Source of the DNA: Bacteroides intestinalis
GTDB lineage: Bacteria; Bacteroidota; Bacteroidia; Bacteroidales; Bacteroidaceae
DNA length: 64,000 bases
Direction of reading: 5' to 3'
Assembly (NCBI RefSeq): GCF_902364365.1
Contig: NZ_CABJDN010000002.1
Span: 372,155 to 436,154 of the forward strand
Shown: positions 4,931-22,161 of the stretch, one piece after another
How the letters are laid out: every line of letters starts with the position of its first letter
How positions within the stretch are numbered: the stretch's first letter is position 1
The notes under the pieces: model-generated
The model's database searches: none
What the model saw: the letters and a program-made list of their open reading frames with translations, nothing else
Told to the model about the DNA's origin: nothing
Position numbers and translations under genes: made by a program

Positions 4931-4956
4931 TGTGATTTTCCTCATTCTTCTCTGAC
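4931..4956 (+). promoter_or_regulatory. Shared TGTGATTT-N14-TGAC promoter-like motif (copy 1)
   Basis: TGTGATTT at 4931-4938, then 14 bases, then TGAC at 4953-4956 followed by AAATATAG. GAC ends 35 bases before the start codon at 4992. The same two-block motif with the same 14-base spacing lies before the genes at 16323 and 22194. It does not match the usual Bacteroides TTTG/TAnnTTTG promoter. Confidence 0.6.
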
Positions 4957-4991
4957 AAATATAGCAAGAAACAATTTTAATATTCATAAAC

Positions 4992-7811
4992 ATGAAACAT
5001 CTATTTCGTAATTTATTGCTTATAGCATTTATCGTATGCTGTAATTTTCAACAGGCTCTTGCACAACAGATGCCTCCTATTCCAATCGATTCCAATGTAC
5101 GCATTGGAAAACTGGATAACGGCCTAACTTACTATATCCGCAAAAACAATCTCCCCGCCGAACGGGCAGACTTTTATATCGCTCAGAAAGTAGGTTCCAT
5201 CCAGGAAGAAGAGAACCAACGCGGTCTGGCACATTTCCTCGAACACATGTGCTTTAACGGAACCACCCATTTCCCGGGTGATGCCCTGAAACAATATCTG
5301 GAACGCATCGGAGTTAAGTTCGGTGAAAACCTGAATGCCTACACTGCAGTAGATGAAACCGTATATAATATTTCGAATGTACCTGTCAATACTCCGGGAG
5401 CCATCGATTCTTGTTTATTAATTCTGCACGACTGGAGCAATGACCTGACTCTGGACCCTAAAGAGATTGATAAAGAACGCGGAGTCATCAACGAAGAATG
5501 GCGTACACGCATGAGTGCAGTGCAACGTTTCCAGGAAAAGTTGCTTCCTGCCATGTTTGCCGGTACCAAGTATGCTACTTGTTTCCCCATTGGAACCATG
5601 GATGTAGTGATGAACTTCAAGCCGCAGACACTAAGAGACTATTATGAAAAGTGGTATCGTCCCGATTTGCAAGGCATTATTGTGGTGGGAGACGTAGATG
5701 TAGATGCCATCGAAGCACAGATTAAGAAACTGTTCGCCGATGTCCCCGCACAGCCCAATGCCGCCAAACGCGAATATTATCCGGTAAACGACAATAAAGA
5801 ACCGATTGTGCTGATTGCCCGAGATAAAGAACAGCCCCATATCCAAGCTATCATCTTTAACAAACACGAAGCAACTCCCGACTCGGAGAAAGGCAATATG
5901 AATTATCTGATACAAGACTATGCCATCGACCTCATCAATAACATGCTGAATGCCCGACTGAACGAACTGCTTCAAGCTGCCAACCCTCCGTATATCTACG
6001 CAGGAACCTATGATGGAGATTTCTTCGTTGCAAAAACCAAACAAGCCTTTACCGGCATTGTTGTTTGCAAAGAAGATGCAGTGGAAAACGGTATCACCAC
6101 CCTGGTTCGCGAAATGGAACGTGCCCGTCAGTTTGGCTTCACCGAAAGCGAATACCAACGTGCCCGTGCCGAGTATCTGCGCAATATGGAATCTGACTAC
6201 AACGAACGTGATACACGTAGGAACGAGGTATTTATTGATGAATATGTACGCCACTTCCTTGACAACGAACCCATACCGGGTATTGAAAACGAATACGCCA
6301 TCATCAACCAAATAGCTCCGGCCATCCCCGTACAAGCATTGAATCAGATGATGCAGATGTTGATAACAGATACCAACCAGGTAGTCGCCATTTTCGGTCC
6401 CGAAAAAGAGGAACTGAAAATGCCGACAGAAGAAGCTATCAAGAAGATTCTGAAAGATGTAAAAGCCGAGAAGCTGACTCCGTATGTAGACAAAGTATCA
6501 GACGAGCCCTTGATGAAAGAAGCCCCGAAGGGTGGAAAAATCATCTCCGAACAAAAAGATGATGTATTCGGCACTACCATACTGACATTATCCAACGGAG
6601 TAAAAGTTATCATCAAGAAAACTGACTTCAAAGCTGATGAGATTACCATGAAGGGTGTAAGCCTGGGAGGAAGTTCACTGTTTCCCAACTCTGAAATCAT
6701 CAACATCAACGGTTTGGATGCCGTTTCTGCAGGCGGTTTAGGCAATTTCAGCGCTGTAGACCTTGAAAAAGTATTGGCAGGCAAAAGGGCTTCCGTAAGT
6801 TACGGTATCGGTGATAAGACCGAAACTGTCAATGGCTACTGTTCTCCGAAAGACTTTGAAACGATGATGCAACTCACCTATCTGACATTCACTGCTCCGC
6901 GCCGTGATGATGAAGCTTTTGCATCTTATAAGAACCGCAACAAAGCAGCATTACTGAACCAGGAAATGAACCCGAACGTTGCATTCAGCGACAGTATTAC
7001 CTTTGCATTGCAAATGGGACATCCCCGTACCATCCGCATGAAGGCCGATATGATTGACAAGATGGATTATGATAAAATCCTGGCAATGTACCAAGACCGT
7101 TACAAGGATGCCAGCGACTTCACCTTTATCTTCGTAGGCAATGTAGACGTTGAAGAAATGAAACCGCTTATTGCCGAATATCTTGGAGCATTGCCTGCCA
7201 TCAACCGTAAAGAATCATTTAAGGATAACAAGATAGAATACCGCAAAGGTGTATATAAAAATGAGTTCATCCGTGAACAAGAAACAGCTAAAGCCTCTAA
7301 CTTCGTCAGTTTCATCGGTACGTGCAAATATGATTTAAAGAATTCCATTCTGCAGGACATGACTTGCCAGATTATGGATTTAGTTTATACCGAGAAAGTA
7401 CGCGAAGATGAAGGCGGAACTTATGGGGTATATGTAGGTGGCAATCTCTCCAAATATCCAAAGGAAATAGCCGGAATACAAATTGTTTTCGATACAGCAC
7501 CTTCTAAGAGAGAGAAACTGATGAAAATCATCTTTGCCGAGATAGAGCACATATCCAAAGAGGGGCCGTCTCAAGCCAATCTTAATAAGGTGAAGGAGTT
7601 TATGCTGAAGAAGCATGCCGAAAACCTGAAAGAAAACAGCTACTGGATGGGAAGTATTGATGAATACTTGTTCACCGGAATGAATCCGATAAAAGACTAT
7701 GAACAAATAGTCAACAGTATTATGGCAAAAGATATTCAAAAGTTTGCCTCTGACCTGTTCAAACAGAAAAATGAGATAGAAGTCTCAATGATCAGTCCGG
7801 ATAAAAAATAA
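4992..7811 (+). CDS. Secreted M16 (pitrilysin/insulinase-type) zinc peptidase, paralog 1
   Basis: A 939-aa protein with a signal peptide ending ALA (about residue 24). The inverted zinc motif HxxEH is H81-F-L-E84-H85, and the third ligand E162 lies 76 residues later in KERGVINEEW, the standard M16 spacing. It has N-terminal M16 and two M16_C-like domains, and a second half-repeat starting near residue 520, as in pitrilysins; the second half lacks HxxEH. The R/Y pair typical of M16 C halves is suggested by EGGTYGVYVGG. It is expected in the periplasm or on the outer membrane and degrades peptides. It is paralogous to the gene at 16323 along its full length, including the 5' flank. A strong terminator follows at once, so it is monocistronic. 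Confidence 0.93.
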   Translation: MKHLFRNLLLIAFIVCCNFQQALAQQMPPIPIDSNVRIGKLDNGLTYYIRKNNLPAERADFYIAQKVGSIQEEENQRGLAHFLEHMCFNGTTHFPGDALKQYLERIGVKFGENLNAYTAVDETVYNISNVPVNTPGAIDSCLLILHDWSNDLTLDPKEIDKERGVINEEWRTRMSAVQRFQEKLLPAMFAGTKYATCFPIGTMDVVMNFKPQTLRDYYEKWYRPDLQGIIVVGDVDVDAIEAQIKKLFADVPAQPNAAKREYYPVNDNKEPIVLIARDKEQPHIQAIIFNKHEATPDSEKGNMNYLIQDYAIDLINNMLNARLNELLQAANPPYIYAGTYDGDFFVAKTKQAFTGIVVCKEDAVENGITTLVREMERARQFGFTESEYQRARAEYLRNMESDYNERDTRRNEVFIDEYVRHFLDNEPIPGIENEYAIINQIAPAIPVQALNQMMQMLITDTNQVVAIFGPEKEELKMPTEEAIKKILKDVKAEKLTPYVDKVSDEPLMKEAPKGGKIISEQKDDVFGTTILTLSNGVKVIIKKTDFKADEITMKGVSLGGSSLFPNSEIININGLDAVSAGGLGNFSAVDLEKVLAGKRASVSYGIGDKTETVNGYCSPKDFETMMQLTYLTFTAPRRDDEAFASYKNRNKAALLNQEMNPNVAFSDSITFALQMGHPRTIRMKADMIDKMDYDKILAMYQDRYKDASDFTFIFVGNVDVEEMKPLIAEYLGALPAINRKESFKDNKIEYRKGVYKNEFIREQETAKASNFVSFIGTCKYDLKNSILQDMTCQIMDLVYTEKVREDEGGTYGVYVGGNLSKYPKEIAGIQIVFDTAPSKREKLMKIIFAEIEHISKEGPSQANLNKVKEFMLKKHAENLKENSYWMGSIDEYLFTGMNPIKDYEQIVNSIMAKDIQKFASDLFKQKNEIEVSMISPDKK

Positions 7812-7828
7812 TAGTATATAATAATAAT

Positions 7829-7873
7829 AAAGAAAGGCTGCACTGTGTTTCAAGCACAGTGCAGCCTTTCTTT
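7829..7873 (+). terminator. Rho-independent terminator after M16 paralog 1
   Basis: Nineteen-base perfect arms (7829-7847 and 7855-7873) with a 7-base loop. The stem core is GGCTGCACTGTG, flanked by A-rich then T-rich ends, so it may work in both directions. Confidence 0.85.
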
Positions 7874-8264
7874 ATTAACTTCTTTCTGTAGGGTTATGAG
7901 TTAAGCCGCTGCATCGCCACTTTTATCTCTTTTCGCTGCGACGGTTAATGAAAATCATAGTAAATACTTATTCTTTCCACCATGGTAGAAAGAATAAACG
8001 TTCGGATGGAAAAGGCTAACCGCTGGAAGGGAAAAAGCATAGGAATGCCTAAGAAAGGAGTTAGCTATTGCATTTCGTCAAATCCATCCGCTTCTTGATT
8101 TGTTAGTAACGCGGAATCAGTAGTTGAAATTTGTTTGTTTTTGAACGGACTATAAATTATTAGATTCTAAATCCTGATACCCAAACAAACTGATTGTAAT
8201 CTGCCAGAATAAGTTTAACGGCATATTTGAAATAAGCCTCTGACATAATTGCAAAACAATATTA
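7874..8264. other. Intergenic stretch without a supported gene
   Basis: No convincing ORF on either strand. The one structure I see is a 10-base inverted repeat TTATTCTTTC / GAAAGAATAA at 7968-7977 and 7988-7997. The composition is mixed and could be a decayed gene or an unrecognised RNA. Confidence 0.4.
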
Positions 8265-8295
8265 TTTGGATTATAAATATTTATTGCTACTTTTG
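8265..8295 (+). promoter_or_regulatory. Bacteroides-type promoter for the structured RNA / 8591 gene
   Basis: -33 TTTG at 8265-8268, a 19-base spacer, and -7 TACTTTTG (TAnnTTTG) at 8288-8295. This is an exact match to the Bacteroides primary sigma consensus. Transcription should start near 8300. Confidence 0.7.
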
Positions 8296-8299
8296 TAAC

Positions 8300-8545
8300 A
8301 GCTTACTTCTATGTGTAGAAAGTGGCTTTGAAAATTTTGATTTGAGAACGGTTATTTATTGCATTCCCCTATAAATTCCGCTAAAATTTACAACGGATGA
8401 CAATAAGTGACAGGTCTCACGCACATTTGTATATACACCTTGTTATATACCCAATGGAGCGTGGGGCTATCACTTGTGTCGTTGTAAGGTCCTAGCGGAG
8501 CCTTTAGGGGACATGAGTAGATAGTTTCCCACGCTCTTCTTTTTA
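8300..8545 (+). ncRNA. Predicted structured RNA, long rod (6S-like) or long mRNA leader
   Basis: Nested arms pair in order from outside to inside: TCCCC 8365-8369 with GGGGA 8507-8511; TAAA 8372-8375 with TTTA 8503-8506; TCCGCTA 8377-8383 with TAGCGGA 8493-8499; TACAACG 8389-8395 with CGTTGTA 8480-8486. Further in, AAGTGA pairs with TCACTT, CTCACGC with GCGTGGG and GTATATA with TATATAC. Together they make one long irregular rod interrupted by internal loops, the shape of 6S RNA, and a size near 200 bases would suit. A perfect promoter lies upstream and a T-rich tract follows near 8538. I do not recognise a family by sequence. It could also be the 5' leader of the gene at 8591, which has its own hairpin (8553-8559/8568-8574) just before the ATG. 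Confidence 0.5.
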
Positions 8546-8590
8546 TAAACCACGCATCACAGGGAAATGATGCGGCAACCAAAATAAACC

Positions 8591-8926
8591 ATGTACGAGG
8601 ACTTCAAAGAATGTGTCATCCGGTTAATGCAACATCCCATCATGAGCAAACCTGTTTCTTTTTTAAGCGATTCCGAATGCCTGCAAGCCTATGATCTTAT
8701 CAAACAATTAATCGACCTATCCGTGAATGAAGAGTATACCCAACTGGATTATATCCAGATGGCACGCCTCAAATACCACCTCGGAGAATTAGCCTATCAA
8801 TTAAATACCGACAACGAAAACACAATCCTGCACTACAAATCCCTTCCCCACCTGTTAGAAAAAGGCGGTTTCGACCTCAGTCTCCGTAAATGGGCAGAAC
8901 TGGTCAGCCTGAGAACCAAAGAATAA
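8591..8926 (+). CDS. Hypothetical protein, 111 aa, all-helical
   Basis: Not recognised. A small acidic-neutral, soluble protein without signal or membrane segment; the sequence (QAYDLIKQLIDLSV, YHLGELAYQLNTD, LRKWAELVSL) predicts amphipathic helices. It starts 290 bases after a strong promoter and a structured RNA, with a 7-base hairpin directly before the ATG. The next gene (9074) starts 147 bases downstream on the same strand and could be co-transcribed. Confidence 0.7.
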   Translation: MYEDFKECVIRLMQHPIMSKPVSFLSDSECLQAYDLIKQLIDLSVNEEYTQLDYIQMARLKYHLGELAYQLNTDNENTILHYKSLPHLLEKGGFDLSLRKWAELVSLRTKE

Positions 8927-9073
8927 AAAGAGTTCAAAGAGTTGTCCGCATTTTTACTTCTGAATATTTTTACATGTTTTTTACGGATAACCTTTGCTAT
9001 TCAATAAAAAATATATAAATTGCCATATTTAAAAACACGAAGGCGGTATTGCCCGATAATAAAAAATAAAACT

Positions 9074-12000
9074 ATGCAGTATGAGAAGGATGTGATTTAC
9101 TCCCTGAAAGTAACCGGGACTATGATAACAAATGATTGTCATTATTATCTGATAGAAAATGAAGGAATCAAATACAAGGTAAAAATGCTGAAATTCCAGC
9201 ACAAACTACCGGTTCCCGATGAAGTGAAATGTATCGTTTATAGCTATGATGCCGACGACACTCCTCTCTTTGCACAACACAAAGGTGAAATATCACGCAA
9301 ACTTTATACAGTCGGCAGCACTTATCCTTTCGTTGTGCAACAAAAGCCAGGCTATCAATCCGGACACCGCAACATCTATTATGGATATGATATGAATGGT
9401 ATACGCGCCTTAATTCAGGTAGGAATAGGAAAAGAACTGACTATAGGAAGAAATGTCCGCTGCACGGTCAAGCATATCAATCCGGATGGAATCTTGGGCG
9501 TCGTTCCTGTCAACCAGGAAATGGACTGTGAAACCAATTTCATTACCTTCGAGCAATTGATGCATAACATCCATACCGAGCAACTGCCAGCCTGTATTCA
9601 ACTGGAAACATTACGCACCGACTCGACCGGAGATCCGAAAACACAGCAAGTATTGAAACAATATGACAGTCACGAAGGAGAATGGCTACTATCGTTCCAA
9701 AGTATACTGCTTGCCAAAAGAGAAGAAAAAATAGAAAAAAAAGATTGGGAAGGAGTATGCGAATTAATACACTACCAACTTCTTATCACCGAATGGATAC
9801 TCGAGGATTCCCTGTTCCTTACATTCTACTCGTCGTCCGTAGTCCAATCCCTGCGCGAAAAGGGAGAACGGGAAATATTTGTCTGCGAAGCAATACTGAA
9901 AGCCATAGAACTTATCCGGAGCAATGCTGTGGATAATTTTCTAAAACATATATTTACAAAAATACGAACTTCGGGATATTTGTCCGACCGGAGCCGAAAG
10001 GCCGAATTACTGACTGCCTTGTTCCGGCTGGACGACACATTGGCTGATAAAAACATGTTTACCCTCACAGAGTTCTGCCAATATATAGCCTGCAACACTT
10101 CAACTACGGAAACTTCCTCCCTGACATCCATTATAGAACTAATCAGGAGGATGATAGAGAAAAACAGAGCTGTGCATGACGTTTCCCCCACTAAAATCAT
10201 GCACTTACTGGCCATCTACCTGCTGCTTTGCTACAACCGCGAAGCACATACGGCAGTCTATCGCATCATGCTTTATCGTTATGCAGCTTTGGCAAGCCCT
10301 TCTTCCGCCGGGATTCTGACGGATAAGGCATTCGATGTATTGACACGGGCAAATCAATCTTACCGCACGGAGTTTAGTTGGGAAGATGTCGTCCACTTCA
10401 AGCCTGAGCCATTCATTACCAAATTACGCTCATTCATGACGGATACATCTGATGATAAAGACAAGCTGATAGCCCAGCATATCACACAGGGAGGACGGAT
10501 ATTGCTACGTAATGGAAAGTTCGGGCTCTATGCCGGTTGCAATCCGGGCGCACTGCTACCCGAACACCAGAAGGTAACAGAGATGGTGTCCGTATTCGAC
10601 GACAGAATTAGTGTATATGCAAAGAAAGACATCAAACCGAAAGCAAATGAAGCACAAAATATTTTTGTATTAAAGAATCTTTGGGGAGAGTTGTCAGGAC
10701 AGCTATCCGAACACATAACGGCATCTACCAAAAAGACACCGGAAAAGATTCTTCCTACGGAAGGAACGCGTGTCAGGATCACGCTGAAAGCATTCAATCC
10801 ACGTTTTCCACTGATGATGTTTGCAGAAGTAACAGAACCGGGATACGAAGGAACCGGCGCACTACTGGCCAATGAAGTAACCCGTAGCCATATCCACAGC
10901 ATGGACGGCATTTTTTATGAAGGAGATACCTTTGAAGCCACAGTATCGAAAGTCGGGCAGAATGGGCGTCTGACATTCAGCATCCTTCGGGAGTTGTTTG
11001 AATTTGTAACGGGAACAATCAAATACGGCCATCGTGTATATGCCAGGCTGATACGAATCTCCAAAGGAACAGGTGTATGGGTATGTGAGGAAGGATACAC
11101 ACTGTTCACACCGGGCGCAACACTCTATCCTGAAGTAGGCACGGTAGCCCTGCTGGAAGTGAGGGGCATCAATGATGCAGGATACATCAATGCCACCTGT
11201 ATAGAAAAATCCGATAAAGAGATAGAAGAAACTGAGGCTCTGGCTAAATTAGTCAGCGAATATATCAATTTCTGTTCTCCACAGGATGAAAAAGCCGAAG
11301 AGGAAGAGGGTAATTTCGGACCAGTCTTCACAGACGAGGACGCAATGCTGACCGGAGAGCAGTTATCGCTCCCCCTAATGTGCGAATTACCTTGGCTACT
11401 GGTAGTGACAGCATCCGCCGAAAAGTCGCTGGTGAAGCGTTACAACCTGCTGGGAACAGCTTATCTGCTGGCCGGAATGCTCAATGATTCAACCTTAAGC
11501 GAATATCTGGCGCTGCAAATGAATTATGAGGAAAACATCTACAGTTTTGCCACCCATAACGGCCAGGCACGATGGACGCATTTTTCGCGCATAGATGACG
11601 CGGCGGTTTCACGTTATCCCTCACTCCGTCCTAAAAAAGAAATGTTACAAATTCTCAGTTTGTTTTATACCCATAACTTCGCCCCGGAGCTTGCAGTAGG
11701 CATTGCAACCACCAAAGATGAAAACAAAGAGCGCATAGTCCGGTTGGTGCTGGCCCATACTCTTTTACTGAACTCCCTGCCGACGGCGACATTAATCCCT
11801 TTGCGCAATGAACTCCTGCAACGCATAGGCGCCGGAGAATTTGCATTGCCCGATGAACCGGCGGCAAAATCTCCATCTGCGGCAGAACACGAAGACATCC
11901 CCCACATGGGGAGAGAGAATGATAAAGTAGAATTTAAATCATCCGTGGTATATCCCGCCGGACGTACCGTACCTGACATGAAACGGCAGTCGGAAATTAT

Positions 12001-13111
12001 ACTGCACACCATTGCAGGCTTCCTTAATGCCGCCGGCGGCACACTCTATATCGGCGTATCCGATGCAGGGGCCATAATTGGGCTGAAGGAGGACTACACC
12101 TACATGGTATGCAATTCGGATGCCTACGAACGTTTCATCCGCCAACGCATCATAGCAACAATGGGAAAAGACATCAACAGCATCATTAAAATAGATTTTC
12201 CCCGATATGGCAACCGTGAAATATGCTGCGTTACAGTGCCTTGCTATGGTAAACTGATTGAACTGAAAGGAGTGATATGGCAAAGGCAAGGCAATTCGAC
12301 AGTGATGCTCGACGGCAATGCCCTGGCCAAGCAGAGAAAAAGGAAAAATGAGATGTTACAAGCAGAACTTAACCAGATTGCGGAAAAGGAAATAGAGCTA
12401 ATCAACGAAAGCCTGTTGCAAACCGGAGAAACACAGACAGCAGTTGCCGCCGCCTTTGCAGCCAGTCTGGAAAAGAAGAAAAAGAAAGTGGAAACCGTAT
12501 CGGAAAAGGCTATAATACAAACATCCCTGATACGCACCAATGCGTTGACGGAAAAAGAAGATGGTACACAGGTGGTGTCCTATCTGTCACTGCTCGATAA
12601 TGGCGGATATGTATTGAAAGACGAATACTCACATATAGACAATGCCATACTCACATTGGGAATCAGTAAAGAGGAAATCGACGGTGCACTGCTCCTCTGC
12701 TATGAAAACGGTTATGTCAACCGCGTTCCGTTGAAAATCTTATTGCAGAAAAAGCGTGATTATGTTTATAAGAATGGTGTGAACAAAGATTCACATTTGA
12801 TATTCGCTACCATTGAAAATGGTGAACCGCACGTCCTGGCACGTACCGCCAACCAAAAGAACGAATACCTGAAAATGTTTCCCGTTGCCAAAATAAAGCA
12901 GAATATGGATCTGGCTTTAAAAGGAACTCCGCTTTTCTCTTATGATTTCGGAAAGGTAATTGCCTGGGAAGTGATACCAGAAATGGAATCAGAAAAGCTA
13001 CAGAAACTGTATAATGACAATCCGGCACATCAGGGATACGCCATTACATCCGAAGCCGTATCTAAAGAAAGGGAACTATTACAAATAATGGGATGGAATA
13101 TTGAAAATTAA
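9074..13111 (+). CDS. Large OB-fold/S1-like and Schlafen AlbA_2 multidomain protein
   Basis: 1345 aa from the ATG at 9074; the frame is open to 9020 but the extra 18 residues are basic and unlike a start. No signal peptide or membrane segment, so probably cytoplasmic. Residues 1-140 contain two beta-rich OB-like segments (YSLKVTGTM..., RNVRCTVKHINPDG). A helical middle follows to about 500. Residues about 555-720 hold further S1/OB-like units (VRITLKAFNPRFP, DTFEATVSKVGQNGRL, YGHRVYARLIRI). Residues about 945-1080 match an AlbA_2 (Schlafen-type divergent AAA_4) domain: ENDKVEFKSS and GFLNAAGGTLYIGVSDAG. A Lys/Glu-rich coiled segment comes next (about 1090-1145), and the end looks winged-helix-like. 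The domain mix suggests nucleic-acid, perhaps RNA, binding. The AlbA_2 domain occurs in regulators and in some defence proteins; I cannot assign a function. Confidence 0.8.
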   Translation: MQYEKDVIYSLKVTGTMITNDCHYYLIENEGIKYKVKMLKFQHKLPVPDEVKCIVYSYDADDTPLFAQHKGEISRKLYTVGSTYPFVVQQKPGYQSGHRNIYYGYDMNGIRALIQVGIGKELTIGRNVRCTVKHINPDGILGVVPVNQEMDCETNFITFEQLMHNIHTEQLPACIQLETLRTDSTGDPKTQQVLKQYDSHEGEWLLSFQSILLAKREEKIEKKDWEGVCELIHYQLLITEWILEDSLFLTFYSSSVVQSLREKGEREIFVCEAILKAIELIRSNAVDNFLKHIFTKIRTSGYLSDRSRKAELLTALFRLDDTLADKNMFTLTEFCQYIACNTSTTETSSLTSIIELIRRMIEKNRAVHDVSPTKIMHLLAIYLLLCYNREAHTAVYRIMLYRYAALASPSSAGILTDKAFDVLTRANQSYRTEFSWEDVVHFKPEPFITKLRSFMTDTSDDKDKLIAQHITQGGRILLRNGKFGLYAGCNPGALLPEHQKVTEMVSVFDDRISVYAKKDIKPKANEAQNIFVLKNLWGELSGQLSEHITASTKKTPEKILPTEGTRVRITLKAFNPRFPLMMFAEVTEPGYEGTGALLANEVTRSHIHSMDGIFYEGDTFEATVSKVGQNGRLTFSILRELFEFVTGTIKYGHRVYARLIRISKGTGVWVCEEGYTLFTPGATLYPEVGTVALLEVRGINDAGYINATCIEKSDKEIEETEALAKLVSEYINFCSPQDEKAEEEEGNFGPVFTDEDAMLTGEQLSLPLMCELPWLLVVTASAEKSLVKRYNLLGTAYLLAGMLNDSTLSEYLALQMNYEENIYSFATHNGQARWTHFSRIDDAAVSRYPSLRPKKEMLQILSLFYTHNFAPELAVGIATTKDENKERIVRLVLAHTLLLNSLPTATLIPLRNELLQRIGAGEFALPDEPAAKSPSAAEHEDIPHMGRENDKVEFKSSVVYPAGRTVPDMKRQSEIILHTIAGFLNAAGGTLYIGVSDAGAIIGLKEDYTYMVCNSDAYERFIRQRIIATMGKDINSIIKIDFPRYGNREICCVTVPCYGKLIELKGVIWQRQGNSTVMLDGNALAKQRKRKNEMLQAELNQIAEKEIELINESLLQTGETQTAVAAAFAASLEKKKKKVETVSEKAIIQTSLIRTNALTEKEDGTQVVSYLSLLDNGGYVLKDEYSHIDNAILTLGISKEEIDGALLLCYENGYVNRVPLKILLQKKRDYVYKNGVNKDSHLIFATIENGEPHVLARTANQKNEYLKMFPVAKIKQNMDLALKGTPLFSYDFGKVIAWEVIPEMESEKLQKLYNDNPAHQGYAITSEAVSKERELLQIMGWNIEN

Positions 13112-13145
13112 TGATTTACCTGTATAGCACAGAAAGTATGGACAT

Positions 13146-14342: not shown

Positions 14343-15269
14343 ATGAGCGTAGAACCCGAAAAGTGGGGAGTGATATATAACCCCAAAGCCGGCACACGAA
14401 AAGTGCAAAAACGGTGGAAAGAAATAAAAGAATATATGGACAGCAAAGGCGTGTCTTATGATTACGTGCAGTCCGAGGGGTTCGGATCAGTGGAACGTTT
14501 GGCCGGTATTCTTGCCAATAATGGATACCGTACTATTGTCGTAGTAGGTGGTGACGGTGCACTGAATGATGCGATTAACGGCATCATGTTGTCCAATGCA
14601 GAAGATAAAAGAGAAATCGCCATAGGCATCATTCCGAACGGTATCGGGAATGACTTCGCCAAATACTGGGAAATGACCTCGGAATACAAAGATGCGGTGG
14701 ATTGTATTATCAATAACCGTCGCCGGAAAATCGATGTCGGCTTCTGTAATTATTACGACGGCGAGCAACACGTTACCCGTTATTTCCTCAATGCCATCAA
14801 TATCGGTTTAGGAGCCCGCATTGTGAAGATCAGCGACCAGACCAAACGTTTCTGGGGAGTAAAATTCTTATCTTACCTCATGGCACTCATTTCACTTTTC
14901 TTTGAACGCAAGCTTTACCGGATGCATCTTAAAATAAACGGAGAACATATCCGCGGACGTATCATGACGGTTTGTATCGGCAGTGCATGGGGATATGGAC
15001 AAGTTCCCAGTGCCGTTCCCTATAATGGTTGGCTCGATGTATCCGTGATCTACCGCCCGGAATTGCTACAACTTGTATCAGGCTTGTGGATGTTACTTCA
15101 AGGACGCATATTAAACCATAAAGTCGTAATGCCTTACAGGACACAGAAAGTGAAAGTACTGCGTGCACAAAATGCCTCTGTCGATCTGGATGGACGCCTC
15201 CTCGACAGACACTTCCCATTGGACATCGGCATCATGCATGAGGCAATCACCTTGATTATACCCAACTAA
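14343..15269 (+). CDS. Diacylglycerol kinase-family lipid kinase
   Basis: 308 aa, soluble or peripheral. The DAGK catalytic domain signature VVVGGDGALNDAINGI is at about residues 66-81 and the second motif IIPNGIGNDFAKYW follows, as in YegS/DgkB-type lipid kinases. It should phosphorylate diacylglycerol or a related lipid with ATP. The C-terminal half matches the YegS/DAGK C-terminal beta domain (VDLDGRLLDRHFPLDI). It sits between miaA and kdsA, so a role in membrane lipid recycling next to LPS core synthesis is plausible but inferred. Confidence 0.88.
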   Translation: MSVEPEKWGVIYNPKAGTRKVQKRWKEIKEYMDSKGVSYDYVQSEGFGSVERLAGILANNGYRTIVVVGGDGALNDAINGIMLSNAEDKREIAIGIIPNGIGNDFAKYWEMTSEYKDAVDCIINNRRRKIDVGFCNYYDGEQHVTRYFLNAINIGLGARIVKISDQTKRFWGVKFLSYLMALISLFFERKLYRMHLKINGEHIRGRIMTVCIGSAWGYGQVPSAVPYNGWLDVSVIYRPELLQLVSGLWMLLQGRILNHKVVMPYRTQKVKVLRAQNASVDLDGRLLDRHFPLDIGIMHEAITLIIPN

Positions 15270-15287
15270 AATAAACGATTAACGTTT

Positions 15288-15338
15288 AGTGATAAGTGAT
15301 TAGCAAGCTGTGTTATCACTTGCTAATCACTTATCACT
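15288..15338. repeat. Inverted repeat of the TTAGTGATAAGTGATTAG family, copy 1
   Basis: Arms 15288-15307 and 15319-15338 are perfect 20-base reverse complements (AGTGATAAGTGATTAGCAAG). More ACTAAACACTAAATACTAAA units follow up to the kdsA start. A related element is at 19171-19215. Confidence 0.75.
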
Positions 15339-15367
15339 AATCACTAAACACTAAATACTAAATACTT

Positions 15368-16171
15368 ATGATTGAATTAAAAAATAACCCTGCCGGAAAT
15401 TTCTTCTTATTGGCAGGTCCTTGTGTGATTGAAGGGGAAGAAATGGCAATGCGTATTGCCGAACGTGTGGTAAACATCACAGAGAAACTACAGATTCCCT
15501 ACGTCTTTAAAGGTTCTTACCGCAAAGCAAACCGTTCACGCCTGGACTCATTTATGGGAATAGGTGATGAAAAAGCACTGAAAGTATTGCAGAAAGTACA
15601 TGATACGTTTGGAGTGCCCACAGTTACAGATATTCATTCCGCCGAGGAGGCTGCCATGGCTGCCGAATACGTGGACGTACTACAGATTCCGGCATTTCTC
15701 TGCCGTCAGACGGACATTCTGATAGCTGCCGCAAAGACAGGAAAAGTCGTAAATATCAAAAAAGGGCAGTTCCTCTCCCCTCTTGCCATGCGCTTCGCTG
15801 CAGAAAAGGTAGTAGAAGCCGGCAATAAGGAGGTGATGATCACCGAACGTGGAACGACTTTCGGATACCAGGACCTCGTTGTAGACTATCGTGGAATACC
15901 GGAGATGCAAACTTTCGGTTATCCGGTTATTCTGGACGTCACCCACTCGCTGCAACAACCCAATCAGACAAGCGGAGTTACAGGCGGTATGCCACAGCTC
16001 ATTGAAACTGTAGCCAAAGCCGGTATTGCCGTAGGCGTCGACGGATTGTTTATTGAAACACATGAGCATCCCGAAATAGCCAAGAGCGATGGTGCCAACA
16101 TGCTGAAGCTGGATCTGCTGGAAGGATTGCTGACAAAGTTAGTACGGATAAGAGAGGCTATAAAAGAATAA
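15368..16171 (+). CDS. kdsA: 3-deoxy-8-phosphooctulonate synthase (Kdo-8-P synthase)
   Basis: 267 aa, standard length. Condenses phosphoenolpyruvate with arabinose 5-phosphate in the Kdo branch of lipid A-core synthesis. Motifs: LAGPCVIEGEE near the N-terminus, KGSYRKANRSR (PEP and phosphate binding), DIHSAEEAA, and DVTHSLQQP. Cys near residue 11-13 (GPC) is the position of the metal-ligand Cys in metal-dependent members. A hairpin terminator follows at 16199-16238. Confidence 0.95.
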   Translation: MIELKNNPAGNFFLLAGPCVIEGEEMAMRIAERVVNITEKLQIPYVFKGSYRKANRSRLDSFMGIGDEKALKVLQKVHDTFGVPTVTDIHSAEEAAMAAEYVDVLQIPAFLCRQTDILIAAAKTGKVVNIKKGQFLSPLAMRFAAEKVVEAGNKEVMITERGTTFGYQDLVVDYRGIPEMQTFGYPVILDVTHSLQQPNQTSGVTGGMPQLIETVAKAGIAVGVDGLFIETHEHPEIAKSDGANMLKLDLLEGLLTKLVRIREAIKE

Positions 16172-16198
16172 GTTCACTCTTGTAAAGTACACTGAGAT

Positions 16199-16238
16199 AA
16201 ATGGGAATTTAGCAAGTTTTGTCGCTAGATTCCCATTT
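16199..16238 (+). terminator. Terminator after kdsA
   Basis: AAATGGGAAT (16199-16208) pairs with ATTCCCATTT (16229-16238), extended inside by TAGC/GCTA (16210-16213, 16224-16227). It ends in T-rich sequence. Confidence 0.7.
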
Positions 16239-16261
16239 GTGTAAAAAAACAATCCTCCTCT

Positions 16262-16287
16262 TGTGATTTCTTTTTCCGTCCTTCGAC
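16262..16287 (+). promoter_or_regulatory. Shared TGTGATTT-N14-CGAC promoter-like motif (copy 2)
   Basis: TGTGATTT at 16262-16269, 14 bases, CGAC at 16284-16287, then AAATAGAG. The distance to the ATG at 16323 is 35 bases, the same as in copy 1. The bases after the motif (AAGAAACAATTTTAAT) are also identical to copy 1. Confidence 0.65.
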
Positions 16288-16322
16288 AAATAGAGTAAGA
16301 AACAATTTTAATCTTCATTAAT

Positions 16323-19160
16323 ATGAAACATTCATTTCGTAGTTTATTGGTGGTAGCATTCGTTTTATGCGCCAGTTTCCAGCAAGCGGTAGCACAGCAA
16401 ATGCAGTTTCCGCCTCTTCCCGTGGACAAGAATGTCCGTATCGGCCAATTAGACAATGGCTTGACGTATTACATCCGTCATAACAAATTACCCGAAAACC
16501 GGGCTGAATTTTATATTGCCCAGAAAGTAGGTTCCATCCTCGAAGAGCCGCAACAACGTGGTCTTGCTCACTTCTTGGAGCACATGGCCTTCAATGGTAC
16601 AAAGAATTTCCCCGGCGATGACAAAGGTCTCGGTGTTATCCCCTGGTGTGAAACCGTAGGTATTAAATTTGGAACAAACTTAAATGCCTATACCAGCATA
16701 GACGAAACCGTCTACAATATCAGCAATGCCCCGATAGACCGTGCCGGTGTATTGGACTCTTGTTTGCTGGTTCTGCACGACTGGTCTAACTACATCCTGC
16801 TTAAAGATGACGAGATAGACAAGGAACGTGGAGTGATCCGTGAAGAGTGGCGTAGCCGTAACAGTGGTATGTTGCGCGTTTATACCGACCTGCTTCCCAC
16901 CATATATCCGGGTGATAAATACGCAGATTGTATGCCTATCGGCTCTATCGATGTAATCAATAACTTCCCCTACAAAGATATCCGTGACTATTACCACAAA
17001 TGGTACCGTCCCGATTTGCAAGGTATCGTTATCGTAGGTGACATTGATGTTGACGCTGTAGAAGCTAAGCTGAAAGCAGTATTTGCCGATGTACAGAAAG
17101 CTGTAAATCCGGCAGAGCGTGTTTATTATCCTGTTGCCGATAATAAGGAACCTATCGTAGCCATCGGTACAGATAAAGAAGTAGACGATCCGTCTATCGA
17201 GGTTTACTTCAAGCAAGATGCAACCCCCGATTCAGAAAAGAATAACGTAGGTTATCTGGCTTCCCAGTATATGACAAGCATGATCACCAGTATGCTGAAC
17301 GCACGTCTGAGTGAACTGACCCAGAGCGCTAATCCGCCATTTAACCGTGCATATAGCAGTTACGGTAATTTCTTTGTAGCTAAAACCAAAGAGGCCCTCA
17401 ATCTTTCAGCATCAAGTAAAGCGAACGGTATTGAAGAAGCCCTGAAAGTCCTGTTACAGGAAGCAGAACGCGCCCGTCGTTTTGGTTTCACAGAGTCTGA
17501 ATACGCCCGTGCCCGCGCTAACTATCTGCAACGTCTGGAATCTGCATACAACGAGCGTGAGAAGACCAAACACGGTTCTTATGTACGTGAGTATGTACGT
17601 AACTTCCTGGATGCCGAACCTATCCCTGGTATTGAAACAGAATATGCCATGATGAACCAATTGGCTCCCAACATTCCGGTACAGGCTATAAACATGGCAA
17701 TCCAGCAACTCGTTCCGGACAGTAACCAGGTAGTTATCATTGCCGGTCCCGAAAAAGAAGGATTAAAATATCCGCAGAAAGAAGAAGTTATTGCTTTGCT
17801 GAAAGGTATGAAGAGCCTCGATCTGCAACCGTATGTTGACAAGGTGTCTGATGAACCTCTGATGAAAGAAGCACCGAAAGGCGGCAAAATCGTATCTGAG
17901 AAGGAAGGTGAAATCTATGGTAGTACGAAGCTTGTTCTTTCCAACGGTGTAACTGTTTACATCAAAAAAACCGATTTCAAAGCAGACGAGATCCGTATGA
18001 AAGCAACCAGCCTGGGTGGTAAATCTCTTTTCCCCGATAAGGATGCACTGAACTTTGCTGTTATGGACAATGTGGTTGCTGCAGGTGGTTTGGGTAACTT
18101 CAGCCAGGTAGACCTTACAAAGGTATTGGCCGGAAAGAAAGTTTCTGTTCGTGCCGGACTAGGTGCTACTACTGAAAATGTATTCGGAACTTGTTCTCCG
18201 AAGGACTTCGAGACCATGATGCAGTTGACCTATCTCACATTCACCGCTCCCCGCAAGGACATGGAAGCATTCGAGTCTTATAAGAACCGTACAAAGGCCG
18301 AACTGGAAAGTGCACAGGCTAATCCGCTTTCTTCCATCAACGACACATTGCAGAAAGCTATGTACAACAACCATCCGCGCGTGGTAATAATGAAACCGGA
18401 AATGGTAGATCAGATCAACTATGACCGTATTCTGGAAATGTACAATGACCGTTTCAAAGATGCCAGCGACTTTACATTCTATTTCGTTGGAAACATTGAC
18501 CTGGAAACAGCTAAACCGCTGATTGCAGAATATCTGGGTGCATTGCCTGCCATCAACCGTAAAGAGACTTTCAAAGATACCAAGATGGAGATCCGTAAAG
18601 GTACATACAAGAATGAATTTGCCAAAGAACAACAGACTCCAATGGCAACTATCGTATTCCTGTATACCGGAAAAACTCCTTATACATTGAAGAATGAAAT
18701 TCTGTTGAGCTATATGACCCAGGTGCTGAACATGGTTTATACTGAAGAAGTACGCGAAAAAGAAGGCGGTACATACGGTGTAAATTGCATGGGTAGCCTA
18801 CAGAAGTATCCGAAAGAACAATTGCTGATGCAGATTGTCTTCCAGACGGATCCTGAGAAGAAAGATAAACTGGCCGGTATCGTAGTAGACGAGCTGAAGA
18901 AACTGGCAGCAGAAGGACCGTCTGATGTACATTTGCAGAAGGTAAAAGAGTACATGTTGAAAAAGTATGCTGATAACCAAAAGGAAAATGCATACTGGCT
19001 GAACAACCTGAACGATTACTTCTACTATAATATGGATATGACGCAAGGATACACAGATATCGTAAACAGTATCACTGCCAAAGATATCCAGAAGTTTGCA
19101 GCAGACTTGCTGAAACAAGGTAATGAGATCGAAGTAACGATGACGGTACCTAAAAAGTGA
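16323..19160 (+). CDS. Secreted M16 (pitrilysin/insulinase-type) zinc peptidase, paralog 2
   Basis: A 945-aa paralog of the gene at 4992, with a signal peptide ending AVA. HxxEH is H83-F-L-E86-H87; the distal Glu is E168 in DKERGVIREEW, 80 residues on because of a four-residue-longer loop (DDKGLGVIPWCETVG where paralog 1 has DALKQYLERIG). That loop sits next to the active site and could change specificity. The second half-repeat has lost HxxEH, as usual, and keeps EGGTYGVNCMG. The conserved 5' flank suggests an old duplication of gene plus promoter. It is followed by an extragenic repeat and the DUF5687/ABC genes. Confidence 0.93.
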   Translation: MKHSFRSLLVVAFVLCASFQQAVAQQMQFPPLPVDKNVRIGQLDNGLTYYIRHNKLPENRAEFYIAQKVGSILEEPQQRGLAHFLEHMAFNGTKNFPGDDKGLGVIPWCETVGIKFGTNLNAYTSIDETVYNISNAPIDRAGVLDSCLLVLHDWSNYILLKDDEIDKERGVIREEWRSRNSGMLRVYTDLLPTIYPGDKYADCMPIGSIDVINNFPYKDIRDYYHKWYRPDLQGIVIVGDIDVDAVEAKLKAVFADVQKAVNPAERVYYPVADNKEPIVAIGTDKEVDDPSIEVYFKQDATPDSEKNNVGYLASQYMTSMITSMLNARLSELTQSANPPFNRAYSSYGNFFVAKTKEALNLSASSKANGIEEALKVLLQEAERARRFGFTESEYARARANYLQRLESAYNEREKTKHGSYVREYVRNFLDAEPIPGIETEYAMMNQLAPNIPVQAINMAIQQLVPDSNQVVIIAGPEKEGLKYPQKEEVIALLKGMKSLDLQPYVDKVSDEPLMKEAPKGGKIVSEKEGEIYGSTKLVLSNGVTVYIKKTDFKADEIRMKATSLGGKSLFPDKDALNFAVMDNVVAAGGLGNFSQVDLTKVLAGKKVSVRAGLGATTENVFGTCSPKDFETMMQLTYLTFTAPRKDMEAFESYKNRTKAELESAQANPLSSINDTLQKAMYNNHPRVVIMKPEMVDQINYDRILEMYNDRFKDASDFTFYFVGNIDLETAKPLIAEYLGALPAINRKETFKDTKMEIRKGTYKNEFAKEQQTPMATIVFLYTGKTPYTLKNEILLSYMTQVLNMVYTEEVREKEGGTYGVNCMGSLQKYPKEQLLMQIVFQTDPEKKDKLAGIVVDELKKLAAEGPSDVHLQKVKEYMLKKYADNQKENAYWLNNLNDYFYYNMDMTQGYTDIVNSITAKDIQKFAADLLKQGNEIEVTMTVPKK

Positions 19161-19170
19161 TTAAGGAAGT

Positions 19171-19215
19171 AGTGATTAGTGATAAGTGAAAATACAGTTC
19201 TTATCACTAATCACT
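19171..19215. repeat. Inverted repeat of the TTAGTGATAAGTGATTAG family, copy 2
   Basis: Arms 19171-19186 and 19200-19215 are perfect (AGTGATTAGTGATAAG). Two direct repeats AATCACTAACGACTAATCAC follow up to the ATG at 19261. It fills the whole gap between the M16 gene and the permease gene. Confidence 0.75.
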
Positions 19216-19260
19216 AACGACTAATCACAAATTAATCACTAACGACTAATCACTAAAAAC

Positions 19261-20754
19261 ATGAATCTATTTCTTGAGCTACGTAAACATGGAAAGTTAG
19301 CAGAAAAGCGGCATCCGATGTACGAAAAGAGTAAGTTCGGAAAGTTTTGGATGTACTTCATGAGTGTGTTCTGGGCAGCTTATCTCATATTCTTCGGAAC
19401 AACCTTCGCCTTTGCTTTCGATGGTGGAGCCAGAGAAGCCTACCATGTAATGAACAGCGGACTCATATTTGTGCTCGCCCTCGACTTTCTCATGCGCTTA
19501 CCCTTCCTGAAGACACCTACACAGGAAGTCAAACCCTACTTACTGCTTCCCGTAAAACGGAGTCGTCTGATTGACTTCCTTCTCCTGCGTTCCGGGCTTA
19601 ACAGCTTCAATCTGCTCTGGCTCTTCTTGTTTGTCCCATTTGCCATCATCACAGTTACTAAATTTTATGGAGTGGCAGGTGTGTTGACTTATTGTATTGG
19701 TATCTGGCTACTCATCATATTCAATAATTACTGGTATTTATTGTGCCGTACGCTGATGGACGAACGCATCTGGTGGTTCCTCCTACCGGTAGCCCTATAT
19801 GGTGGTATTGCTGCTGCACTTTTCATTCCGGACAACAGCCCGATATTTGCCTTTTCAGTCAATTTGGGTGAAGGATTCATCACCGGAAATATACTGACGT
19901 TTATCGGAGTTCTGCTGGCCATTTTTATCATGTGGTTCATCAACAGGAGCATCATGCAAAGATTAGTCTATAACGAACTAAACAAGGTAGAAGATACAAC
20001 CGTACAGGTAAAGACTGTATCCGAATACAAATTCCTGGATCGTTATGGTGAAATTGGTGAATATATCCGGTTAGAGTTGAAGCTGTTGCTTCGTAATAAA
20101 GTCTGCAAAAAATCACTCTATAACATCACTGCTGTAGTATTAGCTTTTAGCCTCATCATCAGTTTCTCTGATCTTTATGAGGGAGGTTCACGCGACTTCT
20201 TCGTACTTTACAACTATATCATCTTCGGTATTCTGTTCCTCTCTCCGCTAATGAGTTATGAAGGTAACTATATCGACGGACTGATGAGTCGTAAAGAATC
20301 CATCTATTCGTTACTACGTGCCAAATACATCTTATATAGCCTGGCTCTGATCATTCCGTTTATACTGATGATTCCCGGCATGGTGACAGGTAGGGTATCT
20401 GCCTTGCAATGCATCTCATGGCTTATATTTGTTCCAGGCTGCGTTTATTTCTGCATGTTCCAACTGGCAGTGTACAATAACAAGACCCTTAACCTGAACG
20501 CCAAGATGACCGGTCGTCAGAACGTGGGGACAGGATTGCAGAACCTTATTTCAGCTGGTGCATTTGGTGTGCCTCTGCTACTGATGTTCGGGTTAAAGGC
20601 AATGGTTGGCAAAGAGGTTACACCATGGATTCTTATAGGTATCGGACTTGCATTCATTATAACTTCAAGATGGTGGTTAAGAAATGTGTACCATCGTTTC
20701 ATGAAGCGCCGGTATAAGAATATGGAAGGATTTCACGATAGTAGACAAAAATAA
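19261..20754 (+). CDS. DUF5687 family membrane protein, ABC permease
   Basis: 497 aa with about 10-12 hydrophobic membrane segments, beginning near residue 30 (FWMYFMSVFWAAYLIFFG). It matches what I know of DUF5687, a Bacteroidetes family resembling ABC-2 permeases. The ATP-binding gene begins 8 bases after the stop, so the two form a transporter. The cargo is unknown. Cytoplasmic loops are basic and rich in RR/KR. Confidence 0.8.
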   Translation: MNLFLELRKHGKLAEKRHPMYEKSKFGKFWMYFMSVFWAAYLIFFGTTFAFAFDGGAREAYHVMNSGLIFVLALDFLMRLPFLKTPTQEVKPYLLLPVKRSRLIDFLLLRSGLNSFNLLWLFLFVPFAIITVTKFYGVAGVLTYCIGIWLLIIFNNYWYLLCRTLMDERIWWFLLPVALYGGIAAALFIPDNSPIFAFSVNLGEGFITGNILTFIGVLLAIFIMWFINRSIMQRLVYNELNKVEDTTVQVKTVSEYKFLDRYGEIGEYIRLELKLLLRNKVCKKSLYNITAVVLAFSLIISFSDLYEGGSRDFFVLYNYIIFGILFLSPLMSYEGNYIDGLMSRKESIYSLLRAKYILYSLALIIPFILMIPGMVTGRVSALQCISWLIFVPGCVYFCMFQLAVYNNKTLNLNAKMTGRQNVGTGLQNLISAGAFGVPLLLMFGLKAMVGKEVTPWILIGIGLAFIITSRWWLRNVYHRFMKRRYKNMEGFHDSRQK

Positions 20755-20762
20755 TTACGAAT

Positions 20763-21608
20763 ATGATAGAGATAAACAATCTTCAAAAAAACTTCGGCCA
20801 AAAGAAAGCCGTAGATATTGAGAAATATGTCATAGAACAAGGTGACATGCTGGGTTTGGTAGGCAACAACGGAGCTGGTAAAACAACCCTTTTCCGCCTG
20901 ATGCTGGACTTACTCCAGGCAGATCAAGGCAATGTAACCATTAATGATATCGATGTAGCCAAAAGCGAAGACTGGAAACAATTCACCGGCGCTTTCATCG
21001 ATGATGGCTTCCTGATCGATTACCTTACTCCCGAAGAGTACTTCTACTTTATCGGTAAGATGTACGATCTGAAGAAAGAAGAAGTAGATGAGCGCCTGCT
21101 TCCTTTCGAACGATTCATGAATAATGAGGTCATCGGACAAAAGAAGTTCATCCGTAACTTCTCTGCCGGAAACAAGCAGAAAATCGGTATCATATCTGCT
21201 ATGCTGCATCATCCGCAATTGCTGATCCTGGACGAACCGTTCAACTTCCTTGATCCGAGTTCACAATCCATCATCAAGCACTTGCTGAAGAAGTATAATG
21301 AAGATCATCATGCCACGGTCATCATTTCAAGCCACAACCTGAACCATACAGTAGACGTATGCCCTCGCATTGCTTTGCTGGAAAATGGTGTCATTATCCG
21401 TGACATACAAAACGAACATAACTCAGCAGAGAAAGAACTTGAAGATTACTTCAACATAAGAGTGGAAGAAGAAATTGAGGAAGAACTGGCAGAAACAGTG
21501 ATTGAAGAAACACCTCTTCAGGAAACAATCATTGAAGAAACTATTGCTGAGGAACCTATCACTGAAGAACCCTCCACTCAACCGGAAAAGAAAGAAGAAC
21601 AGGAATGA
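20763..21608 (+). CDS. ABC transporter ATP-binding protein
   Basis: 281 aa. Walker A GNNGAGKTT at residues 34-42, signature region RNFSAGNKQKIGI, Walker B LLILDEP, and the switch His in IISSHNLNH. It is partner to the DUF5687 permease just upstream. The last 50 or so residues are an acidic, repetitive Glu/Thr/Pro tail (units like ETIIEETIAEEP) not found in most ABC ATPases. The stop overlaps the next start (ATGA, 21605-21608), so it is translationally coupled to the NlpC/P60 gene. Confidence 0.9.
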   Translation: MIEINNLQKNFGQKKAVDIEKYVIEQGDMLGLVGNNGAGKTTLFRLMLDLLQADQGNVTINDIDVAKSEDWKQFTGAFIDDGFLIDYLTPEEYFYFIGKMYDLKKEEVDERLLPFERFMNNEVIGQKKFIRNFSAGNKQKIGIISAMLHHPQLLILDEPFNFLDPSSQSIIKHLLKKYNEDHHATVIISSHNLNHTVDVCPRIALLENGVIIRDIQNEHNSAEKELEDYFNIRVEEEIEEELAETVIEETPLQETIIEETIAEEPITEEPSTQPEKKEEQE

Positions 21609-22117
21609 AAAAATACTTCTTATATATAGTTGCCCTCATCGGATTGACATTCAGTTTAAGCTCATGCCATACATCAGCACCCCGGCTCAATTACAAGGCA
21701 CTGGCAAAAGCTTCTGTCCGCATGGGTGTTGACATAAATATGGAAGATAACCACAAGTTGTACATTGCCTCCGCGGAGTGGATGGGTGTCCGCTACCGCG
21801 CAGGCGGTGACAACAAGCACGGAGTAGATTGTTCCGGACTGGTATCGCAACTCTATAAAGAAGTATATAATATCCGTTTGGCCAGAAGCACCGATGGTTT
21901 ACTTAAAGAAAGCAACAAAGTCTCCCGCCGCAATTTGCGTGAGGGAGATTTGGTGTTTTTCACCAGCCGTACATCCAAGAAGAGGGTGGCACACGTGGGT
22001 ATCTATCTCAAAAACGGGAAGTTTATTCATGCAAGTACCAGCAAAGGAGTTATTGTCAGTAGCCTCAACGAACAATACTATACGCAATACTGGCTTTGCG
22101 GCGGCAGAGTAAAATAA
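21605..22117 (+). CDS. NlpC/P60 family cell-wall hydrolase, lipoprotein
   Basis: 170 aa. The lipobox is LSSC with Cys21, so it is probably a lipoprotein. The catalytic Cys76 is in HGVDCSGLV, His130 in KRVAHVGIY, and a polar third residue at His142 (FIHAST). The fold cleaves peptidoglycan stem peptides (gamma-D-Glu to diamino acid bonds). It overlaps the ABC ATPase gene by 4 bases, linking the transporter to the cell wall, as in FtsEX-hydrolase pairs; that link is inference. Confidence 0.9.
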   Translation: MKKYFLYIVALIGLTFSLSSCHTSAPRLNYKALAKASVRMGVDINMEDNHKLYIASAEWMGVRYRAGGDNKHGVDCSGLVSQLYKEVYNIRLARSTDGLLKESNKVSRRNLREGDLVFFTSRTSKKRVAHVGIYLKNGKFIHASTSKGVIVSSLNEQYYTQYWLCGGRVK

Positions 22118-22135
22118 GAATCTTTTTTCTTCCCC

Positions 22136-22161
22136 TGTGATTTTTCCTTTCCCTCCCCGAC
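22136..22161 (+). promoter_or_regulatory. Shared TGTGATTT-N14-CGAC promoter-like motif (copy 3)
   Basis: TGTGATTT at 22136-22143, 14 bases, CGAC at 22158-22161, then TTATAG. It ends 32 bases before the ATG at 22194. The coding sequences around are unrelated to the M16 genes, so the match is not due to gene duplication. Confidence 0.6.

Follow-up and report, generated by a model that had tools for sequence, protein, structure and literature searches.

A probable two-box promoter motif shared by M16 peptidase genes and the gene of a putatively autoregulated ECF sigma factor in Bacteroides

We analysed a 64,000-nucleotide (nt) stretch of the Bacteroides intestinalis genome (contig NZ_CABJDN010000002.1, positions 372,155 to 436,154, forward strand; hereinafter the window), in which a bipartite motif, TGTGATTT-N14-YGAC-WWATA, precedes two genes for M16 zinc peptidases (M16a and M16b) and one gene for a TraB/PrgY/GumN-family protein (TraB). 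Comparison with related genomes makes it very probable that the motif is the promoter of one autoregulated extracytoplasmic function (ECF) sigma factor, which a membrane partner would hold until an envelope signal arrives.

The motif described in the original prediction is real. It matches the window perfectly at three places, all on the + strand and with no fourth copy anywhere in the 64 kb, while a first-order Markov estimate gives about 1.4 × 10−4 matches for both strands. Eight matches were found when up to three mismatches were allowed; 100 dinucleotide-shuffled sequences averaged 2.25 and always stayed below eight. The predicted distances of 35, 35, and 32 nt to the ATG are correct when measured from the last base of YGAC, and are 5 nt shorter when measured from the end of the A/T tail. 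Pfam assigns the genes as claimed, namely Peptidase_M16 and M16_C to both peptidases and TraB_PrgY_gumN to the third protein. Read by eye, the N-terminus of each of the three proteins resembles a signal peptide. None of the three sites contains the TAnnTTTG box near −7 that marks a primary sigma promoter (TTTG/TAnnTTTG).

The genus-wide scan proposed with the prediction gave 82 sites of TGTGATTT-N14-YGAC-NNAYA in 54 of 119 genomes, compared with 2 sites of a reversed control pattern. In nine genomes of related loci, TGTGATTT-N14-YGAC occurs at 26 sites and the reversed pattern at 4. The spacing is strongly preferred, with counts of 1, 7, 4, 82, 12, 3, and 2 for spacers N11 to N17, and 14 reversed-control sites in all. 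A chance origin of the motif was rejected on the window count against its expectation, the genus count against the reversed control, and the spacer preference. Pooling the sites without redundancy by flank, the three of the window included, left 85 distinct sites, of which 45 precede M16 genes, 27 ECF sigma-factor genes, 4 TraB genes, and 9 other sequence; 76 of the 85 stand before the first three kinds of gene. The 27 sigma sites comprise 25 classified as such and 2 mis-framed by the script (L040 and L075, settled by L150 and L142). According to the script, 66 of the 76 classified sites lie 20–60 nt before a start codon, the range foreseen in the prediction; two of the ten outside it are the mis-framed sigma sites, whose true distances are 32 and 33 nt. 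Four of the 45 M16 sites precede a third, 967-amino-acid (aa) type of M16 protein, with 22–26% identity to M16a over part of its length and 65–74% to the protein of locus L253, which Pfam calls M16.

The logo of the 76 sites shows that the motif extends beyond the two boxes, with an A-rich tract 13–17 nt upstream, a pyrimidine-rich spacer, and the tail NNAYA, which the search pattern had imposed. With the first T taken as position 0, positions 34 and 35 are C in 71% and A in 91% of the sites. If transcription starts at the conserved A of position 35, the first base of TGTGATTT is at −35 and CGAC occupies −13 to −10. The spacer scan and the logo thus describe two boxes at a fixed spacing, probably near −35 and −10, as in an ECF sigma regulon.

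The third kind of motif-bearing gene is absent from the window. Its product has 161 aa and contains sigma-70 regions 2 and 4. Specifically, the protein of locus L037 matches PF04542, PF08281, and TIGR02937 (sigma70-ECF) above cut-off and has no region 3. With regions 2 and 4, no region 3, and a length below about 200 aa, it is an ECF sigma factor. To avoid choosing loci by their motif, we searched the same 119 genomes starting from the sigma protein. Orthologues scoring 276 bits or more are found in 90 genomes, and the next group of the alignment search begins at 209 bits. Upstream stretches of 160 nt (105 nt in one locus) were scored at 15 motif positions with spacers of 13–16 nt; the score was devised after the sites had been seen, and one reversed and 20 mononucleotide-shuffled copies of each sequence were scored alike. 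Of the 88 sigma genes scored (G012 and G104, both with an exact motif, were left out), 81 reach at least 12 of 15 and 78 at least 13, compared with 46 and 6 of 1848 controls. The spacer is 14 nt in 70 of these loci and 15 nt in 11. The occurrence of the regulon promoter before 81 of 88 sigma genes points to autoregulation. The sigma gene of G006 (L150) has one in-frame stop and an intact promoter motif, which reflects either decay or an assembly error.

The motif before M16 genes tracks the presence of the sigma factor. In a search with the M16b protein, 52 of 55 M16 upstream stretches from sigma-bearing genomes score at least 13 (54 at least 12), compared with 4 of 21 from genomes without the orthologue and 8 of 1400 shuffled sequences (20 mononucleotide shuffles per sequence). 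Fisher's test on the first 49 and 21 loci gives p = 1.3 × 10−11, uncorrected for kinship. The 55 loci consist of 29 of the 30 best-scoring ones and 26 picked among those without an exact-motif locus, the latter choice running against the claim. The 21 consist of 20 picked loci and L281; left out were G069 and G112 (45% identity), G107 (partial), and G075 (exact motif), and with G075 counted the figure becomes 5 of 22. The exact motif occurs in 52 of 90 sigma-bearing genomes and in 2 of 29 others, namely G070, where no target gene follows the site, and G075, where an M16 gene does. The genomes classed as lacking the sigma factor may be incomplete assemblies. The gene kinds at 76 of 85 sites, the preferred spacer, and this tracking of sigma presence support the predicted ECF sigma-factor promoter.

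In 87 of 88 loci, the sigma gene is adjoined by a gene for a membrane protein, a putative anti-sigma factor of 187–217 aa where complete. Its structure model is all helix, with five helices, no strand, and a mean predicted local distance difference test (pLDDT) score of 72. By eye, four of the five helices hold hydrophobic stretches and the first ~50 residues look soluble. DUF5345, which we take to be the YxlC/anti-SigY family, matches the N-terminus weakly in four of four members (E 0.12 at best), which is only a hint. Gene 3 of the L037 sigma operon encodes a metallophosphatase, and in 17 of 25 sigma loci the following gene has a 13-nt overlap, and its start resembles that of the metallophosphatase wherever it is long enough to judge.

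We propose the following model. The promoter would consist of the −35 box TGTGATTT, a spacer of 14 (sometimes 15) nt, and the −10 box YGAC followed by NNAYA, with transcription starting some 10 nt downstream of the C. The sigma factor would transcribe its own operon, containing the genes of the sigma factor, the putative multi-helix inner-membrane anti-sigma factor and, usually, the metallophosphatase, together with one or two genes for large exported M16 zinc peptidases. In the clade of the window, M16b would head an operon with DUF5687, ABC ATPase, NlpC/P60, and TraB genes, and some lineages would add a third M16 and a TraB gene with a promoter of its own. An envelope signal would make the membrane protein release the sigma factor, which would then raise its own level and that of peptidases clearing faulty peptides or proteins from the envelope.

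Several observations weigh against this model. The case is built from sequence comparison, and its evidence on the sigma factor comes from other genomes than that of the window. The membrane protein of L037 matches no Pfam family at 0.001, and a fold search with its model found no solved structure at E 0.001. Seven of the 88 sigma genes score below 12. In three of them (L185, L196, and L197), an open frame ends 38–47 nt before the sigma match, so that the gene may use an upstream promoter. In L198, a tRNA-Cys gene (287–359) was called by ARAGORN shortly before the sigma gene, the only exception with a tRNA. L209 has TGTGATTT but no −10 box, and no recognisable box was found in L200 or in L213, the latter with little upstream sequence. 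The leader of L200 resembles that of L198 without a tRNA call, possibly marking an insertion or rearrangement point. Conversely, four of the 21 M16 genes reach 13 in genomes where no orthologue was found (L294, L298, L307, and L310). L294 and L307 have sigma-bearing near neighbours, so that parts of these assemblies may be missing, and the motif of L310 is of the TGTA...CGTC type found before sibling sigma factors. Kinship is a further concern. On an M16 tree of 70 fragments and 121 columns with few well-supported forks, sigma presence changes 10 times and the motif 7 times; a test with kinship removed is underpowered, having four supported independent pairs, of which one to three (mean 2.3) are concordant, and its sign test is not significant. 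The direction agrees with the model, with one of 200 pairings giving the opposite. Finally, beyond the genus the exact motif (N14 or N15) is hardly above control, with 14 sites in 12 of 393 genomes compared with 9 reversed; two of the 12 genomes were already counted in the genus, and the 14 sites are unclassified by gene.

The strongest competing explanation, which we regard as somewhat unlikely, is that several sibling ECF sigma factors read the promoter and that the motif reflects what their specificities have in common, in which case the orthologue may still be the chief reader. We read 14 sigma homologues of 38–50% identity (L331–L344), 11 in genomes without the orthologue and 3 beside it. 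By eye and with no control, all 14 upstream stretches contain TGTAA or TGTAG followed 14–18 nt on by CGTC or CGAC, and for 8 of them the N-terminus of the next protein closely resembles that of the putative anti-sigma factor. Some of these similar boxes have the same −10 as the motif (TGTAATC...CGAC in G077, L336), and the authors of the SM6 motif of Flavobacterium psychrophilum raise the same multi-sigma possibility in the available part of their report (PMC9723704). However, in G077, G008, and G055, which hold both sigma factors, the −35 box differs (TGTG as opposed to TGTA) and the M16 gene bears GTGATTT, and the M16 scores (52 of 55 against 4 of 21) point to the orthologue as the reader. 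The differing sibling boxes suggest that the letters are specific to the sigma factor, which is also why a single reader is not proven.

M16 promoters of four genomes without the orthologue (G118, G121, G032, and G062) have TGTAG or TGTAA with CGTCTAA, by eye and with no control. In G118 and G121, the sibling that was read has a like promoter, TGTAAT...CGTCTAATA; in G032 and G062 it has TGTAAC...CGAC, a partial match to the M16 promoter, one sibling having been read per genome. Most other M16 genes of sigma-lacking genomes have neither type of box. Tentatively, and with less than even confidence, we suggest that the sigma factor is a Bacteroides counterpart of the sigma-E response whose conserved output is the M16 peptidases, and in which promoter and sigma specificity have switched together, M16 being handed to a sibling through TGTA...CGTC where the orthologue is absent, and basal and stress promoters being superimposed in some lineages. 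If so, these promoters would form a natural series for how ECF sigma factors choose their boxes, and the siblings L331–L344 a subfamily for studying promoter choice.

It is improbable that the motif is instead a transcription-factor binding site beside ordinary housekeeping promoters. TAnnTTTG does occur inside the spacer, just before YGAC, at 8 of 76 sites compared with 1.3 expected from shuffles. The eight are five sigma promoters of near relatives of the window (e.g. L037, 5401–5431) and three third-type M16 promoters, with L080, L083, and L125 among the loci concerned, and they may represent overlapping basal and stress promoters in some lineages. However, the other 68 sites have no exact TAnnTTTG between motif and gene, and two boxes with ECF-like spacing close to the gene, with an ECF gene itself as target in 81 of 88 genomes, fit a promoter better. 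M16a and M16b are paralogous and their leaders are similar, yet sharing of the window copies through duplication and local sequence transfer, with no regulon, is most improbable and already contradicted, because the sigma operon elsewhere bears the motif across the genus and because the boxes hold while the spacers diverge in close relatives: in the M16b promoters of the window and four orthologues, found via TraB and the window and not via the motif, the box columns are invariant (8/8 and 9/9, 17/17 in total), compared with 4 of 14 spacer and 5 of 30 upstream columns.

The features of the window are listed in Table 1. HFLEH of M16a and M16b is the HxxEH zinc motif. At the site orthologous to the M16a promoter, B. 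oleiciplenus (L128) has TGTGATTT-N14-AGACAAATA, with one mismatch. The segment from 16262 to 23169 is readable as one unit, M16b-DUF5687-ABC-NlpC-TraB, because hairpins lie before the M16b promoter and after TraB; a scan of the region for terminator-like hairpins gave 9 sites compared with 6.8 in shuffles, the one after TraB having the longest stem. A second copy of the motif lies inside this unit, before TraB. All six genes checked, from DAHP synthase to TraB, are present in six of nine related loci (L001–L009); among these loci, L007 and L008 lack a match to NlpC, and L005 and L008 one to the DAHP gene. In the window, the DUF5687, ABC ATPase, and NlpC/P60 genes (19261–22117) lie between M16b and TraB; with the DUF5687-ABC pair recurring in all nine loci and NlpC in seven, they form a conserved unit. 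In a tenth, distant locus (L010), TraB stands alone.

Table 1 Features of the window around the three motif copies
Feature	Position	Strand	Details
ECF-type promoter of M16a	4931..4961	+	−35 box TGTGATTT, 14-nt spacer, −10 box TGAC + AAATA; exact match
Predicted transcription start of M16a	near 4966
M16a, probably exported M16 zinc peptidase, 939 aa	4992..7811	+	PF00675, PF05193; HFLEH at 81
Hairpin probably terminating the upstream DAHP-synthase gene	16197..16240	+	86-nt stretch, −25.9 kcal/mol, z −6.3 (200 shuffles)
ECF-type promoter of M16b operon	16262..16292	+	exact match; predicted start near 16297
M16b, probably exported M16 zinc peptidase, 945 aa	16323..19160	+	Pfam; HFLEH at 83
DUF5687 protein, gene 2 of probable operon	19261..20754	+	PF18940; order kept in L001–L009
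ABC transporter ATPase	20763..21608	+	PF00005; order kept in L001–L009
NlpC/P60 peptidase	21605..22117	+	PF00877; present in 7/9 loci L001–L009
Internal ECF-type promoter, 76-nt gap before TraB	22136..22166	+	exact match; predicted start near 22171
TraB/PrgY/GumN-family protein, 295 aa	22194..23081	+	PF01963; signal-peptide-like start; GTHH at 39
Terminator-like hairpin, may close M16b-TraB operon	23139..23169	+	14-pair stem, then T-rich tail

The motif before TraB varies between lineages. Among ten TraB loci from a protein search outside the window, it is exact in L005 and L009, has one mismatch in L006, and is absent in L001–L004, L007, L008, and the distant L010; the four closest relatives lack it. 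The motif also precedes TraB in G083 (L111). In L001–L004, TraB starts ~30–40 nt after NlpC, so that the M16b promoter may be its only one. TraB is thus best read as a lineage-restricted, rather than a constant, member of the regulon. In G088 (C24), two motifs with 15-nt spacers lie at 164295 and 170096, the first 58 nt before an M16 match; the distance of 5.8 kb suggests that the second precedes TraB. The original prediction had spoken of a periplasmic proteolysis regulon. The comparative data support the shared promoter; TraB, with the motif at 3 of 10 loci outside the window, is not constant, and proteolysis is suggested by the gene families. Specifically, an envelope proteolysis or stress role would fit the probably exported M16 proteins with HxxEH, NlpC/P60, and TraB. 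The TraB fold has been compared with Tiki metalloproteases.

A wider regulon was considered and rejected. A search of eight genomes with at most one mismatch gave 31 sites (11 exact and 20 with one mismatch), compared with 3 for the reversed control. Sixteen were examined singly, and 4 precede M16 genes (L232 and L249; third type in L252 and L253) and 12 lie in front of, within, or next to genes that are not seen again. Of the remaining 15, 14 are sigma, M16, or TraB sites, and one, in G012, is without a locus and was left unread. Among the nine distinct sites outside the 76, that of L062 lies inside an open reading frame, and L064 and L105 are each alone of their kind. In the genome of L008 (Mediterranea massiliensis), a single exact site (L052, 1501) lies 86 nt before a gene that we take to encode an SppA-like signal-peptide peptidase. 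In L034 and L071 (both at 1501), the motif lies ~80 nt before a presumably Cas9-like gene, probably by chance; the stretch is perhaps a CRISPR repeat or tracrRNA region. In L094 (496), L107 (506), and L110 (490), it runs antisense to the conserved start of what we take to be a glutamate synthase gene, where codons explain it and there is no promoter.

Promoters of the Bacillus subtilis SigX/SigW/SigY type read TGTAAC-N16/17-CGTC or CGAC. The present system shares with them a bipartite promoter of the same layout (TGTGAT-N16-CGAC) and an ECF gene, here probably autoregulated, that lies ahead of a gene for a membrane-bound anti-sigma factor, here a putative one. It differs in its −35 box, TGTGATTT, in its pyrimidine-rich spacer, and in its M16 and TraB targets, and the sigma protein scores below the NCBIfam cut-offs for SigX, SigW, and SigY. 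A literature search of titles and the starts of abstracts found none that described M16 or TraB genes of Bacteroidota as an ECF regulon; the motif may be present in ECF classification resources that include promoter predictions. No B. thetaiotaomicron locus tag could be assigned to the sigma factor among 120 of 976 proteins, which bear names like 'RNA polymerase sigma factor' or none.

Among Bacteroidales systems, EcfO-Reo and Das-Dma (ECF21) of Bacteroides and Phocaeicola are, in the available parts of the reports, also ECF sigma factors with an adjoining anti-sigma factor, their own operon being induced and their role being in envelope stress or vesiculation (PMC13114119, PMC13088901, PMC9308784). 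However, their anti-sigma factor is described there as spanning both membranes with a C-terminal barrel, whereas the membrane protein here has 187–217 aa and an all-helix model. Identity with EcfO or Das was rejected because the putative anti-sigma factor has no C-terminal outer-membrane barrel. Targets given for EcfO-Reo/Das-Dma include NigD genes, and the main texts of PMC13114119 and PMC9308784 contain no mention of 'M16'. CirY-CirZ of Phocaeicola vulgatus, an ECF sigma/anti-sigma pair strongly induced in colitis, is set apart by its description in the available text, being co-transcribed with genes for a Spy-like chaperone and peptidoglycan/carbohydrate binding and with no metallophosphatase (PMC13114119).

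Non-canonical two-box promoters have been ascribed to ECF factors before, namely PM2 of B. thetaiotaomicron and the SigH-1 and SigW-1 promoters, in the parts of the reports available (PMC7366714, PMC12596196). Compared from that text alone, they are near-palindromic with TGTT near −10, as opposed to YGAC here, which was part of our search pattern. SM6 of F. psychrophilum is, according to the available text, likewise ECF-type and found before an ECF/anti-sigma pair among others, but its targets include type IX secretion genes and its −10 CGT is nearer to the sibling CGTC than to CGAC (PMC9723704). B. thetaiotaomicron is reported to have 50 ECF sigma factors, many of which have no assigned function or regulon (PMC12596196). 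The present analysis links, from sequence data only, a promoter motif with its probable reader, a candidate anti-sigma factor, and a small set of targets. Such a regulon would open the signal, the mode of action of the anti-sigma factor, and the part played by the large exported M16 peptidases to direct testing.

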